A stretch of DNA of 28,699 nucleotides from a virus: positions 1-28,699 of the IMG/VR virus record IMGVR_UViG_3300038738_000007; one strand, 5' to 3'. The notes under the pieces are model-generated. The model worked only from the letters and a program-made list of their open reading frames with translations, was not told the DNA's origin and searched no databases. Both the position numbers and the translations under genes were made by a program. Below, in pieces: positions 2,691 through 25,703 of this stretch; position 1 is the stretch's first letter; each line of letters opens with the position of its first letter.

Positions 2691-3625
2691 TAGAAAGTCA
2701 CCCCTTCAACGTAGGCTACCGCTGCCGGTTCCTCAAAGATCGGGTCAAAGTCAGAGTGGATCGCATAGAAGCGTTTGTCAGCGTAGATAGCTTCTTTACC
2801 TTCAGTTGTTTTACGGATTTGTTGGTCATAGGTGTGGACCATGACAAAGTTCTTATGATAAGTAAAGATGACCTTACCTTCTGGGATGTGCGGAACCTCT
2901 TCCACATCATAAGAGTTGATTTTCTTAACGCCACCAGTAATTTGCAATTGTATGGAGGCGCTTGTATCTTTTTCTGCTAATCGTTGAAGACGTTCAGAGA
3001 ACGTATTCGGATGCATGAAATACTTGAATACTCCCGCTGATCTTAGACGGGTAGGGATAGCACGCTCCAACTCGAAAAAGATACCTAGCTTCTCAGCCTC
3101 AGAGATTTTCTCCCAGTCAATGTAGTTTCCTTTTGTTTTAGCAATCTTCAACCATCCATCATTGATCTTCAAGAAGTCGTAATCCGGATCGGTGTTCGGT
3201 GTCGCGGTATCACCGTTGAAGCCGATGTCCTGCATGTTGTCACCATAATTCAGTGTCATGTGCTTCAAGATGATTTGCTCTGCGCTTTGTTTCCTTACAC
3301 GCTGGGTTTGACGAATGAATTCCTCAGTAATTTCAAAGGGAAGAACCACCGGGGTAACAGAATACGGCACCTGCGGGAATGTTGGGGCCTTGATGTTAGA
3401 AGCCGCCACATTTTCTACTTTTCCTCGAAGGTTACGTCCAGTTACTCCGATCTTATCGATCGTTCCCTGGGAAGAGGTACGGGTTTCGTGACGGATACCA
3501 CGCAAGAAATCTGTGGAATCATACGCCATGTCCATGAAGGCATTGACTTCTTCATACGTAAGGGCGTTGTTATCCAGTGTAGTTACGATAGTGTTTTTTG
3601 CAATCAACTCTTGGTTTGTAGCCAT
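2690..3625 (-). CDS. Major capsid protein (XkdG/YqbE-like)
   Basis: A 311-residue HK97-fold-type major head protein of the PBSX/skin group. It starts with MATNQELIAKNTIVTTLDNN and has no obvious cleaved N-terminal delta domain; that job probably belongs to the upstream protease/scaffold gene. The segment PTFPQVPYSVTPVVLPFEIT (about residues 81-100) and the later ITGGVKKINSYDVEEVPHIP and EGKVIFTYHKNFVMV stretches match the spine-helix and P-domain layout of this family. A strong ribosome site, AAGGAGGG, lies 8 nt before the ATG, as expected for the most abundant virion protein. It sits between the XkdF-like gene and the YqbF-like gene. Confidence 0.88.
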   Translation of the reverse strand: MATNQELIAKNTIVTTLDNNALTYEEVNAFMDMAYDSTDFLRGIRHETRTSSQGTIDKIGVTGRNLRGKVENVAASNIKAPTFPQVPYSVTPVVLPFEITEEFIRQTQRVRKQSAEQIILKHMTLNYGDNMQDIGFNGDTATPNTDPDYDFLKINDGWLKIAKTKGNYIDWEKISEAEKLGIFFELERAIPTRLRSAGVFKYFMHPNTFSERLQRLAEKDTSASIQLQITGGVKKINSYDVEEVPHIPEGKVIFTYHKNFVMVHTYDQQIRKTTEGKEAIYADKRFYAIHSDFDPIFEEPAAVAYVEGVTF

Positions 3626-6982: not shown

Positions 6983-8434
6983 CTACCTCCTTTCCCCAAT
7001 ACTGACACGCTCCGTAACACTTCGGCGTTCAGTGTTTATGATGGGTACAACCTTCCTGATTTCAGCAAAGGCCAAAACAACTGCATCAGCGCGGTCAGGC
7101 GAATCCAACCCGCGCTTCTTCATGTCCTCTTTCCGCTCAAGAGCGATCTTCCCCCGGCTTGTCATTCGGTACTTCCGCTGCGTAAGCTGCGTAATCAGCC
7201 TTTCGTCATTTGGCAGCTCCACCCCGTTTGGCCCTCCTTGCAAATGGCCGGAGAAGTTTTCTTGAAGAAGATTCCGAACCATTGCCCAGCATTCTGTACC
7301 GAGGTTATCGTAATGCTCCTCTTCATCCCTGGATGGCTTTGCACCGTTGTTAACCGGGATAACCTCCCAGTTCGTCAGACCTTCTTCTTGAATGATTTCG
7401 TTCAGCCGATCGACAACACCGCCCCCTACTCCGGTATCGTCAACTTTAATTCGGACCTGTCGAAGCGAAGGACGTTCCCTGAGAAAATCCTTTGCTGTTT
7501 TTACGCACCAGCCTGCCGTAACCATCGTGTCTTGCTTGTTATAGCAGCGAAGGGGAAACACCTTCATACCAATACGCGGTGCGATGACCGTCTCGTCGTC
7601 ACCAAAGCGAGCCACGTCCACGCCAAGGTGCAGCGTATCTCCTATCGGCTCCACTGTAGCATTGGCAGCCAGTTCAGCCAGTTCAAGTGCAATGAAGGCG
7701 TCAGCTTCCGCCTTCGGAAATTCACCGTAAACCCGGACACGTACGACATCAGACTCAGCACCGTACTTGTCGATGAGCATTTGAATGTTTTCCTTGCTCG
7801 TCCGCTTACTATTCCGACTGTCGACCTTATGCGTACGGAAACGGCTCCGGTCCCGGTTGTGCGAGTCATAAAAAACACCCGACGTCTTGGTCGGGTTCCC
7901 ACACATCAAAAGCTTATTTTCATCACCTGAAAGAGTACCAAGTATAGCCTCCATAATCGGATCAGCAACCCCAGAAGCCTCGTCCACGATAAATAGCATA
8001 TAATCCTCATGGAAGCCTTGCATATTTTCAGGCTTCGTTGCTGTTCGAGCCGTGGCAAACCAACGCTCCTCATGACCAATCATATAAATCTTCGTCTTGG
8101 TCCATTTCAGCAGATTTTTCACCATGGAGCTCTCAAGCCATTTGGCGATCTCTGCCCAAAGCACATCATGAAGCTGTTGCCGGGTCGGTGCCGTACAGAT
8201 TACCTTGGGGTTAGGCCGGCAGCAGAGGAACCAGATAGCAGCCCATGCCTCAAGTGATGTTTTACCAACACCCTGTCCTGACCTTACACTCACCAACCGG
8301 TTTTGTGCGATATCACGCAATACTTCTGCCTGCCATGTATCAGGTTCAGCCTTGAGCATGTCCCGCACAAACGCTACCGGATCGTCCCAGTAAAGATCGA
8401 TCAGGTCTAGGACAACATTGTACGGCTTACTCAT
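6983..8434 (-). CDS. terL: Terminase large subunit
   Basis: A 483-residue DNA packaging motor. The ATPase half has Walker A SGQGVGKT (residues 52-59), Walker B MLFIVDE (146-152) and the coupling motif MCGNPTK (177-183). The RNase H-like nuclease half has the metal-binding aspartates in LGVDVARFGDDET (270-282), VDDTGVGGG (331-339) and DSPDRADA (444-451). All catalytic positions appear intact. It binds the portal and is brought to DNA by the small subunit, whose gene overlaps the start by 8 bp. A 366-codon open frame on the other strand inside this gene is a shadow. Confidence 0.95.
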   Translation of the reverse strand: MSKPYNVVLDLIDLYWDDPVAFVRDMLKAEPDTWQAEVLRDIAQNRLVSVRSGQGVGKTSLEAWAAIWFLCCRPNPKVICTAPTRQQLHDVLWAEIAKWLESSMVKNLLKWTKTKIYMIGHEERWFATARTATKPENMQGFHEDYMLFIVDEASGVADPIMEAILGTLSGDENKLLMCGNPTKTSGVFYDSHNRDRSRFRTHKVDSRNSKRTSKENIQMLIDKYGAESDVVRVRVYGEFPKAEADAFIALELAELAANATVEPIGDTLHLGVDVARFGDDETVIAPRIGMKVFPLRCYNKQDTMVTAGWCVKTAKDFLRERPSLRQVRIKVDDTGVGGGVVDRLNEIIQEEGLTNWEVIPVNNGAKPSRDEEEHYDNLGTECWAMVRNLLQENFSGHLQGGPNGVELPNDERLITQLTQRKYRMTSRGKIALERKEDMKKRGLDSPDRADAVVLAFAEIRKVVPIINTERRSVTERVSIGERR

Positions 8435-9128
8435 TCTCTCTCACCTTACGTCTCCGCTCCGCAATTTCTTTCAAAGCGTCCGTCCAACTTTGTGTTGCCC
8501 CAGCTCCACCTTGGAGTTTCTGTAACTCTATACGCATCATTTCAATGCGTATCTGTTTTTCCTCGTCAATTGATTCCATACGGTGTTTCAGTTCAACCCA
8601 TTTTGCCTTCTTGTCCTGGACACGGGTTAGCGCCTCTTCGATACGAAGAATATCCTCGATTACCCGAAACTCGGTTTCTTCGATTTCCGTAGTGGCCAGC
8701 TCGTTTCGCGAAAGAACAATGGTCTTTGTAACACCTGATTTTTCGTCATGAACCTGAACAGGTTCTTTAACGGTAACCCGCTCTTGAAGGACCCGGCGCT
8801 GCTTTTCCGTTAACCCTTCTTTCAAATTACGAATGCGGAGCATCATTTCACGCTCACGCCACGAAAACAAGCGGATTTCTTCTTCCGCTTGCTGTACCGG
8901 ATCAAGACTGATCCTCTCAAGTACCTCGGCTTGTTCTGGAGTCAGGGCGTCCATCCAGATAGACTGGAATTCGCCCGTCTTGACTGCGTTGGTATTACGT
9001 TGGGGAGCGCCGCCGCCAGCTCCGTGGAAACGGCATACATCCCATCCTGGCTTTGCCCAATTCTTGCATTGCTCGCCTCGTTGCTTGCTTCGCGCCTTGC
9101 ACCTCTTCTTTTCCGGATTTCTTGCCAT
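8427..9128 (-). CDS. terS: Terminase small subunit (YqaS-like)
   Basis: A 233-residue DNA-recognition subunit of the packaging motor. The N terminus carries a Cys/His cluster (C10, C21, C32 and H35, spaced CX10CX10CX2H), directly followed by GAGGGAPQRNTNAVKTG, the glycine-rich 'GaPxGNxNAlktG' motif of Firmicute small terminases. The middle and C-terminal parts are long charged helices likely to be coiled coil and oligomerisation segments. It overlaps the large-subunit gene. The Cys cluster may be a small zinc site that helps bind the pac or cos DNA; this last point is inference. Confidence 0.85.
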   Translation of the reverse strand: MARNPEKKRCKARSKQRGEQCKNWAKPGWDVCRFHGAGGGAPQRNTNAVKTGEFQSIWMDALTPEQAEVLERISLDPVQQAEEEIRLFSWREREMMLRIRNLKEGLTEKQRRVLQERVTVKEPVQVHDEKSGVTKTIVLSRNELATTEIEETEFRVIEDILRIEEALTRVQDKKAKWVELKHRMESIDEEKQIRIEMMRIELQKLQGGAGATQSWTDALKEIAERRRKVRENE

Positions 9129-9212: not shown

Positions 9213-9446
9213 TTACAGTTCGTCTTTTTGCAGCTCAATATCCAGCTCGATCAGCTTCTTCAAATCATCCACTGTCTTAATCTCGATGTGACCGGATTGG
9301 AAGTCTTTGATCCACTTACCGATTGCGGCTTTCACGACTTTCCTATACTGCTCCTTGGACTCCAAGATGCCTTGGACGACTTCGACCTCATGCTGTAGCA
9401 GTAGGTCATCAGAAATAGAATGAGAACACTCGTTTGTATTTTTCAT
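9213..9446 (-). CDS. Small acidic protein upstream of terminase, function unknown
   Basis: A 77-residue soluble protein, mostly helical and charged, with a basic centre (YRKVVKAAIGKWIKDF) and an acidic C terminus. ATG at 9446 follows GAGGGTG by 6 nt. It precedes terS and is the first gene after the gap at 9447-9582. Its start region overlaps, on the other strand, the -35 box of the predicted plus-strand RNA promoter, so the two could interfere. No known family is recognised. A helper of DNA packaging is possible from position only. Confidence 0.7.
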   Translation of the reverse strand: MKNTNECSHSISDDLLLQHEVEVVQGILESKEQYRKVVKAAIGKWIKDFQSGHIEIKTVDDLKKLIELDIELQKDEL

Positions 9447-9474
9447 TGAGACACCCTCAGCTTTCCTGTAAAAT
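9446..9474 (+). promoter_or_regulatory. Plus-strand sigma-A-type promoter for predicted small RNA
   Basis: TTGAGA (9446-9451) and TAAAAT (9469-9474) are separated by exactly 17 bp, each one base from consensus. The expected start is at 9481-9482, right at the first base of the 10-bp stem of the predicted RNA. It points away from the terminase genes and toward the 3' end of the methyltransferase gene. Confidence 0.7.
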
Positions 9475-9480
9475 GGAAAA

Positions 9481-9584
9481 CGAGATAGCGAGTAGAGGAA
9501 TCTGCGGCCGCAGGGTTTCGCTATCTCAGCCGGGGGTATCCCGGTGTGCTGGGGAGGGCGTTGGAGCGTCCTCCCTTTTCTTTT
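9481..9584 (+). ncRNA. Predicted structured small RNA of about 104 nt, opposite to the late operon
   Basis: Three hairpins follow the promoter. Hairpin 1 pairs GAGATAGCGA (9482-9491) with TCGCTATCTC (9518-9527) and encloses the perfect palindrome CTGCGGCCGCAG (9502-9513), which can fold as a 4-bp stem with a self-complementary GGCC loop. Hairpin 2 pairs CCGGG (9530-9534) with CCCGG (9540-9544). Hairpin 3 is an intrinsic terminator (9552-9575) followed by TTTTCTTTT. No convincing open frame lies inside. It occupies nearly the whole gap between the methyltransferase and the 77-residue gene. A role as a regulatory, packaging-related or dimerising RNA is speculation; promoter, stems and terminator are seen directly. 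Confidence 0.6.
9552..9584 (+). terminator. Intrinsic terminator of the small RNA
   Basis: The 9-bp stem 9552-9560/9567-9575 (one G-T pair) has loop TTGGAG and is followed by TTTTCTTTT. There is no T-run on the minus-strand side, so it acts on rightward transcription. Confidence 0.8.
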
Positions 9585-10617
9585 ATGCTATGGAAAGCCA
9601 CTGATCATAGATTGCAGACGCAATTCCTTTCATCATCAACGGTGGGACAGACATACCGCAAACATATTGAACATCCGCACCCATAAAGTCGTAGTCACGC
9701 GGGAACGTCTGAATACGAATGATGTCCATGTCGCTGATGTAATAGGGCTCATCATATCTGATAAAGCAAGAGTTACTCGCAATCGTGTTTGGCACGCGGT
9801 CATCCTTTACCAAAATAGAGTTGAAATTGCTGACCTTACCGTTGATTCGTTCTGTGATATCCCCAAAACTATCGTCCCGAGGTCTTCGTTTTAACCACCT
9901 TTTGTATGTCAAGGTGTTTGGATCAAGCGGTCGCCCTCTTCCGGATCGAACCTCTTTATACAGCACGGGCCGTTCATGAAATTGTAGAACAAGCTTTGGC
10001 AGCTGGAGATCCTTTCGATGAGCAATGAAAAAAATGCGTTCTCGCTTCTGGGGGACGCCCATCGTCGCTGAGTTCAACAGAAAAAGCTGAACGCGATAGC
10101 CCAGCTGCTCAAATCTCCGCTTTACCAGTGCGACATATCCTTTTGCCAGCCCAATGACCATTCCCCTGACGTTTTCCGCTACCACTACCCGCGGGCGCAG
10201 CTTTTCAACGACATCCAGAAAATCAAAGAACAAATCATCCAGCTTTTGCTTTGCCTGCCCTTCCCTGAAATGATGTTCTTTTCCCCATTTGTTCTCGCGT
10301 TTGCCCGCTATCGAGAAAACGCTACAGGGCGGGGAGCCATCAAGAATATCCAGATCAAATAGTTCCGCCGGCAGCTCATCATCAGGAATCTCCTTGAATT
10401 CCTGAATGGGCATCTGAAATGAGAAACGGGGATTTTGATTCCGCTTGTAAAGAGCCATCATTTGCGGGTCGATTTCTACGTTTCCCAGCACGTCATATCC
10501 CGCTAGTTTGTACCCCATCGTCGATCCTCCACCGCATGAAAAGCATGAAAACACTTTTCGCCCGTTCTTTGGAACGTGCGCTAAATCTGCCAAGCTCCAA
10601 TCCCATTCACGCTTCAT
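9583..10617 (-). CDS. DNA (cytosine-5) methyltransferase
   Basis: A 344-residue C5-cytosine methyltransferase that transfers a methyl group from S-adenosylmethionine to cytosine in DNA. Motif I is VFSCFSCGGGSTMGYKLAG (22-40), motif IV DGSPPC with the catalytic Cys98 (93-98), motif VI ENV (148-150), motif VIII QKRER (190-194), and the C-terminal motif X-like part is GMSVPPLMMKGIA. The target-recognition region lies between about 215 and 300. No restriction endonuclease gene is adjacent, so it is an orphan enzyme. It may protect phage DNA from host restriction or mark packaging sites. The gene overlaps the ParB-like gene by 11 bp. Confidence 0.92.
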   Translation of the reverse strand: MKREWDWSLADLAHVPKNGRKVFSCFSCGGGSTMGYKLAGYDVLGNVEIDPQMMALYKRNQNPRFSFQMPIQEFKEIPDDELPAELFDLDILDGSPPCSVFSIAGKRENKWGKEHHFREGQAKQKLDDLFFDFLDVVEKLRPRVVVAENVRGMVIGLAKGYVALVKRRFEQLGYRVQLFLLNSATMGVPQKRERIFFIAHRKDLQLPKLVLQFHERPVLYKEVRSGRGRPLDPNTLTYKRWLKRRPRDDSFGDITERINGKVSNFNSILVKDDRVPNTIASNSCFIRYDEPYYISDMDIIRIQTFPRDYDFMGADVQYVCGMSVPPLMMKGIASAIYDQWLSIA

Positions 10618-25281: not shown

Positions 25282-25431
25282 TCACGAGGCCGCCGGCAGC
25301 CCTACCCACATCTGCCAGCCGTTGCAACCCTTTGTTACCCACGATCTTTGCCTCGCTATGTAGACCTGTCTCATCAGTGCCGGACGGTCATCCCCGGCAG
25401 ACCAGGGAAACTCTCCCTGGTTTCGACTCAT
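25282..25431 (-). CDS. Possible 49-residue protein translated by 4-nt overlap
   Basis: A 49-residue frame starting MSRNQGEFPWSAGDDRPALM and ending VGLPAAS. Its ATG overlaps the TGA of the preceding gene (ATGA), so it could be translated by coupling; no own ribosome site is seen. It is rich in W, R and Q. An 8-bp hairpin (ACCAGGGA 25401-25408 with TCCCTGGT 25414-25421) lies at its start. It could be a real small gene or leftover sequence. Of the four small frames added here it is the weakest. Confidence 0.42.
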   Translation of the reverse strand: MSRNQGEFPWSAGDDRPALMRQVYIARQRSWVTKGCNGWQMWVGLPAAS

Positions 25432-25703
25432 GCAATAGCGGATTCACGCTGAATGTTCTCCATGTCTTGTTCAACCGACAAAGGCTCTAAACTGTTCAAA
25501 AAGTCACGGAGTCGTACAATCTCCTCCCAGTTTTGGAGGACAACTGTCTGACCCGGTATCCAGCCTGTTCCCGGTTTAAACTCAGGCGTCTGTTCGATAC
25601 GAAGCGTTCCGTCCGTTTTGTATGTCGCCATCCGATCAAATTGACCGCCAAGCAGCTCATTAGAAACGATCTCTTTACATATCAACCGTTCATTCACATT
25701 CAT
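25428..25703 (-). CDS. Small early protein, function unknown
   Basis: A 91-residue protein. ATG at 25703 lies 7 nt after AGGGAGGAC. It has a middle with a possible beta hairpin (YKTDGTLRIEQTPEFKPGTG and QTVVLQNWEEIVRLRDFLNS) and a charged C terminus. It ends with the 4-nt overlap to the possible 49-residue gene. I recognise no family; its position at the start of the recombination operon suggests an early role. Confidence 0.65.
   Translation of the reverse strand: MNVNERLICKEIVSNELLGGQFDRMATYKTDGTLRIEQTPEFKPGTGWIPGQTVVLQNWEEIVRLRDFLNSLEPLSVEQDMENIQRESAIA

Follow-up and report, generated by a model that had tools for sequence, protein, structure and literature searches.

The 28.7-kb virus record IMGVR_UViG_3300038738_000007 of IMG/VR (referred to here in its full length as the window) carries on its plus strand, just upstream of the terminase genes, a gene for an RNA of about 100 nucleotides (nt; positions 9478-9582), which is a member of a widespread phage RNA family with about 170 related phage and prophage sites. 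That this is a new structured RNA family we regard as nearly certain. Near the top of its first stem lies a perfect 12-nt palindrome that varies from phage to phage but keeps its symmetry, and a pattern of covariation within it makes it likely that the RNA would form a homodimer through this element. We favor, with somewhat less assurance, the fuller reading, in which two copies of a small structured phage RNA pair and the RNA gene makes up a two-gene module with a divergently transcribed protein gene of the phrog_1476 family. Self-assembling phage RNAs such as GOLLD, ROOL and the packaging RNA (pRNA) are already known as a broad kind. Oligomeric natural RNAs are nevertheless rare and most known examples are large, whereas the RNA described here is small and common, and the evidence for its intermolecular pairing comes from sequence alone.

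The RNA Gene and Its Parts

A preliminary description of the locus had listed a promoter, a 10-bp repeat, a 12-nt palindrome, a second hairpin and a terminator, all on the plus strand among minus-strand neighbors, and every one of these is present as placed. The predicted promoter (9446-9474) consists of a -35 box TTGAGA (9446-9451), a 17-nt spacer and a -10 box TAAAAT (9469-9474), and is the best promoter match within 5 kb; its -35 box overlaps the start codon of the divergent gene and its spacer overlaps the ribosome-binding site of that gene. The transcript probably begins at 9480-9482 and ends within the T-run at 9576-9584. Its first stem, P1, is a perfect 10-bp inverted repeat (GAGATAGCGA at 9482-9491 with TCGCTATCTC at 9518-9527) that encloses the palindrome CTGCGGCCGCAG (9502-9513), the probable self-pairing element, with linkers of about 10 nt on the 5′ side and about 4 nt on the 3′ side. 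Folding and covariation place the P3 hairpin (GCCGGG-GGTAT-CCCGGT) at 9529-9546, and the intrinsic terminator P4 with its T-run occupies 9551-9584, the hairpin at 9552-9575 being followed by TTTTCTTTT. The predicted fold of the 105-nt sequence has an energy of -53.8 kcal/mol, compared with -38.5 ± 3.9 for shuffled sequences (z = -3.9; none of 200 shuffles as good). Five promoter-like sites occur in the region where 4.1 are expected, which puts single features at the level of chance, and because no single feature in the region goes beyond it, comparison with relatives was needed.

A Widespread Family Linked to phrog_1476

Two collections of loci were assembled. In the first, 80 related viral loci were gathered by means of the terminase protein; BLAST with the RNA returned copies of 70-96% identity upstream of the terminase large-subunit gene (terL), and a covariance model, R1, was built from seven of those sequences. 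R1 matched 22 of the 81 terminase sources (one of which, L001, is a copy of the window), always upstream of terL and on the opposite strand; 21 of these matches are in related loci. All 22 RNA-bearing sources also contain phrog_1476, which is otherwise represented by just a fragment, in L036. In the second collection the phrog_1476 protein served as the sole query and yielded 80 host-genome loci and 80 viral loci. The RNA lies beside the gene in 74 of the former and 78 of the latter, where the two misses are cut off by a contig end. It is always divergent from this gene, whose product is a helical protein of about 70 amino acids.

Among 398 genomes drawn evenly from the phylum, RNA and gene occur together in four, one of them being the genome on which the draw was centered. 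Three weak matches to the RNA have no gene, and of these two look spurious and the third is a decayed copy (L252:1501-1609, where P1 and the palindrome are damaged). Cases of the gene without the RNA comprise a truncated copy in Bacillus mojavensis (L154, near position 3001), in which the RNA breaks off inside the palindrome, and partial gene matches.

Six named phages carry the RNA: Listeria phages B054 and PSU-VKH-LP041, Enterococcus phages phiEf11 and phiFL3A, Latilactobacillus phage TMW 1.2272 P1 and Parageobacillus phage JGon-2020a. It is also found on prophage-like plasmids of Bacillus altitudinis and Anoxybacillus, and hosts include Brevibacillus, Paenibacillus, Bacillus, Heliobacterium, Sporomusa and Pelosinus. 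A DNA similarity search of phage records returned almost nothing because the sequence of the RNA diverges; the route through its neighbors, terminase and phrog_1476, succeeded. Rfam 15, searched at gathering and relaxed thresholds, gave no match for the RNA at the locus of the window or at any of 18 homologous loci. The family is missing from Rfam although phages of Listeria, Enterococcus, Latilactobacillus, Bacillus, Brevibacillus and Paenibacillus carry it. A relaxed-threshold match to sX14, at 20 bits where 80 are needed, was taken as chance.

Covariation of the Stems

The 77 matches from host genomes, among them a few that are weak or spurious, were aligned by fitting to the model. Both sides have changed in 28 of the 29 pairs, with 98.7% of P1, 100% of P2, 86% of P3 and 99.4% of P4 paired; double changes occur in all six pairs of P3 and in eight of the nine of P4. 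Because an alignment fitted to a model favors that model, a second test was run on 48 distinct gap-free strings, each made up of a P1 arm, the palindrome and the other P1 arm. Here all 16 pairs show double changes, P1 alone contributing 10 of 10, and 98.2% of cells are paired (97.9% within P1), percentages that are inflated by the choice of the best-fitting register for each sequence. The covariation score was 0.686, as against 0.045-0.150 for structures slid by one to three columns. The preliminary description had taken the element for a phage small RNA with a self-complementary loop able to pair, to be judged by paired base changes in the 9482-9527 stem of relatives; such changes run through the whole stem, and with all 16 pairs of stem and palindrome compensatory the claim is well supported.

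The signals that flank the structure are conserved as well. Homologues keep a promoter of their own and an intrinsic terminator, and across 145 distinct homologues a TAnnAT -10 box stands at a nearly fixed distance from P1. Around this box lies an inverted repeat, to which no strand is assigned (TTTCC-N8-GGAAA, 9464-9479 in the window); in 102 distinct upstream segments the best arm averages 4.5 bp, compared with 3.3 in shuffles. The arms differ among phages (TTTCC/GGAAA, CTTTCA/TGAAAG, ATCCAT/ATGGAT), and the repeat also shortly precedes the ribosome-binding site of the divergent gene. It may serve as an operator or form a hairpin in that gene's mRNA.

A Variable Palindrome with a Self-Pairing Signature

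The palindrome measures exactly 12 nt in 67 of the 77 host-genome rows, compared with 0-2% for shuffled interiors, and is perfect in 135 of 145 distinct homologues. It comes in about 20 sequences (e.g., CTGCGGCCGCAG, CCGTGGCCACGG, GCCACGCGTGGC, ACGCGGCCGCGT, ACCGTGCACGGT and ACCAGCGCTGGT), with five intact versions within Paenibacillus phages alone, and its central four bases are GGCC, CGCG, GCGC or UGCA. The two central pairs are paired in 96.9% of cells with 19 double-changed cells, and none of 500 shuffles matches the covariation score. Adjacent bases of one loop are unable to pair with each other in a single chain, and the covarying central four bases are therefore a signature of intermolecular self-pairing. 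The same reasoning has been applied to OLE and GOLLD, where covariation of adjacent palindromic loop bases was taken as evidence of intermolecular pairing (PMC12286853), and dimers or oligomers of these RNAs with intermolecular contacts were seen by cryogenic electron microscopy (PMC12286853).

Predicted energies point the same way. The isolated palindrome hairpin is worth -1 to -5 kcal/mol, compared with -20 to -29 kcal/mol for the 12-bp duplex, and the predicted gain on homodimer formation is -19.2 kcal/mol compared with -10.3 when the letters of the palindrome are shuffled, the natural order being better in 107 of 108 sequences. The linkers that join palindrome and P1 are unequal across homologues, 8-15 nt on the 5′ side and 2-6 nt on the 3′ side. 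Parsimony on a tree of the neighboring gene counts 48 changes of the palindrome and 23 of its central four bases, figures that are rough and probably too high since that gene measures only about 200 nt. This fast turnover of an obligate palindrome poses the question of whether there is selection against pairing with the RNA of competing prophages.

A search for a partner site of the palindrome elsewhere in the phage gave near matches only, in GC-rich sequence. One of these, CTGCGGCCGCGG at 878-889 of the window, has a single mismatch and is probably a chance match. The idea that the palindrome is the target of the neighboring DNA-modification enzyme was rejected, as palindromes do not track the type of enzyme.

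Proposed Mechanism

We envision that host sigma-A RNA polymerase would start at the base of P1 and stop at P4, and that the RNA would fold, as the covariation supports, into P1 with the palindrome on top, followed by P3 and P4. Two copies would then pair through the palindrome, first loop to loop and afterwards as a 12-bp or strand-swapped duplex; the covariation signature is observed, and the physical dimer is what it suggests. With a long 5′ and a short 3′ linker, one strand could follow the 12-bp duplex along its length. Finally, the dimer might act in trans, either jointly with the phrog_1476 protein or upon it, where the early genes meet the packaging and late genes, a step we infer from the strict linkage and the divergent promoter only. 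That the RNA has a joint function with phrog_1476 is, going by gene linkage, about an even bet. Bolder, and in our judgment rather unlikely, is a new class of phage ribonucleoprotein, in which an RNA dimer held by a freely evolving 12-bp palindrome has phrog_1476 as its partner and controls the step from replication to packaging in many temperate phages of Bacillota; within such a scheme, each phage's RNA would possibly pair mainly with its own kind.

Several observations weigh against pairing and partnership of this sort. The palindrome hairpin of the monomer is weak, at -1 to -5 kcal/mol, and the predicted monomer fold of the window's RNA lacks the symmetric 4-bp hairpin of the palindrome. 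P1 and the palindrome contain hardly any G-U pairs, a pattern that suits a constraint on the DNA, or on both strands, better than one acting on a single RNA strand; the scarcity could come from a demand for perfect helices, from a both-strand constraint or from a role of the DNA. The phrog_1476 protein has no recognizable nucleic-acid-binding fold, and the tie between it and the RNA is one of linkage only. Published transcript or small-RNA data for the locus were sought and none were found, though data able to show a transcript were not reached.

Competing Explanations

The most serious competitor, to which we give a minor share of the probability, is a cis-acting antisense regulator, in which phrog_1476 is kept low by the activity of the RNA promoter and by base pairing between the RNA and mRNA reading through from the upstream modification gene. 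The layout of the locus fits well: the -35 box overlaps the divergent start codon, the RNA is antisense to the interval before the phrog_1476 gene, the two are linked one to one, and the inverted repeat at the -10 box lies just upstream of the ribosome-binding site of phrog_1476. The RNA and the phrog_1476 open reading frame do not overlap, however, and in many phages unrelated genes lie between the modification gene and the RNA. Moreover, an antisense RNA complements the sense strand automatically, with no need of a palindrome, which leaves the self-covariation of the loop unexplained.

The scarcity of G-U pairs returns in the explanation, improbable in our estimation, that the feature is not an RNA but a two-fold symmetric binding or cutting site in DNA (an operator, cos or pac). 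Such a site would suit a P1 and palindrome that are almost purely Watson-Crick, with the palindrome perfect over 12 bp, and the position beside the terminase small-subunit gene (terS) is the usual location of cos. Against this, the conserved -10 box, transcript-like span and terminator all belong to one strand, and the G-U pairs that are frequent in P3 and P4 fall on that same plus strand, as expected for an RNA. About 20 different sequences are not what a single protein site should show, and they do not track the type of modification enzyme. In the linear records of B054 and phiEf11, terS starts at base 26 or 21, and the RNA lies about 0.5 kb (B054) and about 1.2 kb (phiEf11) inside the right end, though these are deposited and perhaps not physical ends.

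Least probable of all is a packaging RNA that, like phi29 pRNA, forms a multimer within the DNA-packaging motor: its self-pairing loop and its place right before terS, the same in all phages seen, would agree with this, but the same RNA stands beside large terminases without detectable similarity (those of B054, phiFL3A and TMW 1.2272 P1), a plain palindrome closes a dimer and gives no ring, and Rfam returned no match. The preliminary description was right to claim no link to packaging, while its comparison with phi29 pRNA, taken as kinship, finds no support in these unrelated terminases and the empty Rfam search.

Gene Context

The genes around the RNA all lie on the minus strand of the window, in the order ParB-like gene, C5 DNA methyltransferase, phrog_1476 gene, terS, terL and portal, with the RNA between the methyltransferase and phrog_1476. 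The phrog_1476 gene (9213-9446; 77 amino acids; family match at E = 1.2e-28) is divergent from the RNA. It is followed by the terminase small subunit (8427-9128; phrog_1889, E = 9.2e-54) and large subunit (6983-8434). The C5 methyltransferase (9583-10617), whose stop codon abuts the RNA terminator, belongs to the context outside the invariant pair. AlphaFold2 predicts a helical hairpin for the phrog_1476 protein, at a mean pLDDT of 77; comparison of the model with PDB structures gave no usable match, and no similarity to the small terminase subunit of the window was found. Weak matches to Pfam and NCBIfam were dismissed as chance. For this uncharacterized family, the link to the RNA is the first lead on a role.

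The RNA and phrog_1476 are the constant core of the neighborhood. On the terminator side, a ParB-N6/N4 methyltransferase, a C5 methyltransferase or Mom is found in 85 of the 124 cases with an open reading frame ending near the RNA, and assorted accessory genes make up the others. Three unrelated modification enzymes thus occupy one slot with the stop codon by the terminator: Mom (L014:3092-3733), the ParB-N6/N4 methyltransferase (L172:1387-2865) and the C5 enzyme of the window. On the other side, the large terminases of B054, phiFL3A and TMW 1.2272 P1 are not similar to the window's by BLASTP and yet accompany the same RNA. That the pair is kept beside unrelated terminases and unrelated modification genes speaks for a module bound to no single packaging or modification enzyme, and against a packaging RNA specific to a terminase. 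Accessory genes on the opposite strand often lie between the pair and terS. Proteins of 190-210 amino acids with a hydrophobic N-terminus are encoded in this position at L018:3461-4036, L013:3416-4048 and L025:3447-4037, possibly as accessory (moron) genes.

A related arrangement occurs on the Listeria monocytogenes plasmid pCFSAN004330 (L261:5829-5940), where a phrog_1476 homologue and a methyltransferase are found with no terminase nearby. On the strand opposite the gene, the interval holds a terminator of the same orientation together with a TAAAAT box and a hairpin; it contains neither a 12-nt palindrome nor a match to the model. Elsewhere in the window, a type II hammerhead ribozyme lies on the minus strand at 25360-25428 (46.5 bits, with a gathering score of 37), adjoined by a same-strand open reading frame (25428-25703).

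Comparison with Known Systems

GOLLD and ROOL are likewise noncoding and encoded by phages or prophages, and in GOLLD symmetric loop pairing is backed by covariation of palindromic bases (PMC12286853). They are several hundred nucleotides long, ornate, often near tRNAs and present in Rfam; the RNA of the window, unlike them, measures about 100 nt, has one 12-nt palindrome and a fixed protein-gene neighbor, and leaves the Rfam models of GOLLD and ROOL unmatched. The pRNA of phi29-type phages is also a small phage RNA that self-associates by loop pairing and is encoded near packaging genes, but its loops are complementary rather than palindromic (PMC7357161) and its structure is different, whereas the present RNA stands beside unrelated terminases, is not confined to a single type of packaging ATPase and matches no Rfam family.

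The dimerization initiation site of human immunodeficiency virus 1 (HIV-1) resembles it in having a GC-rich palindrome in an apical loop, with a kissing complex that can convert to an extended duplex (PMC7357161); that palindrome is 6 nt long and lies in genomic RNA, compared with 12 nt in a separate small RNA here, and sequence and biology are unrelated. In loop L9.3 of OLE, a GGCC tetranucleotide that switches between palindromes pairs two chains (PMC12286853), although OLE is a bacterial RNA of about 600 nt with protein partners and is not homologous. What the RNA described here shares with homodimerizing RNAs is a self-complementary loop in which adjacent bases covary.
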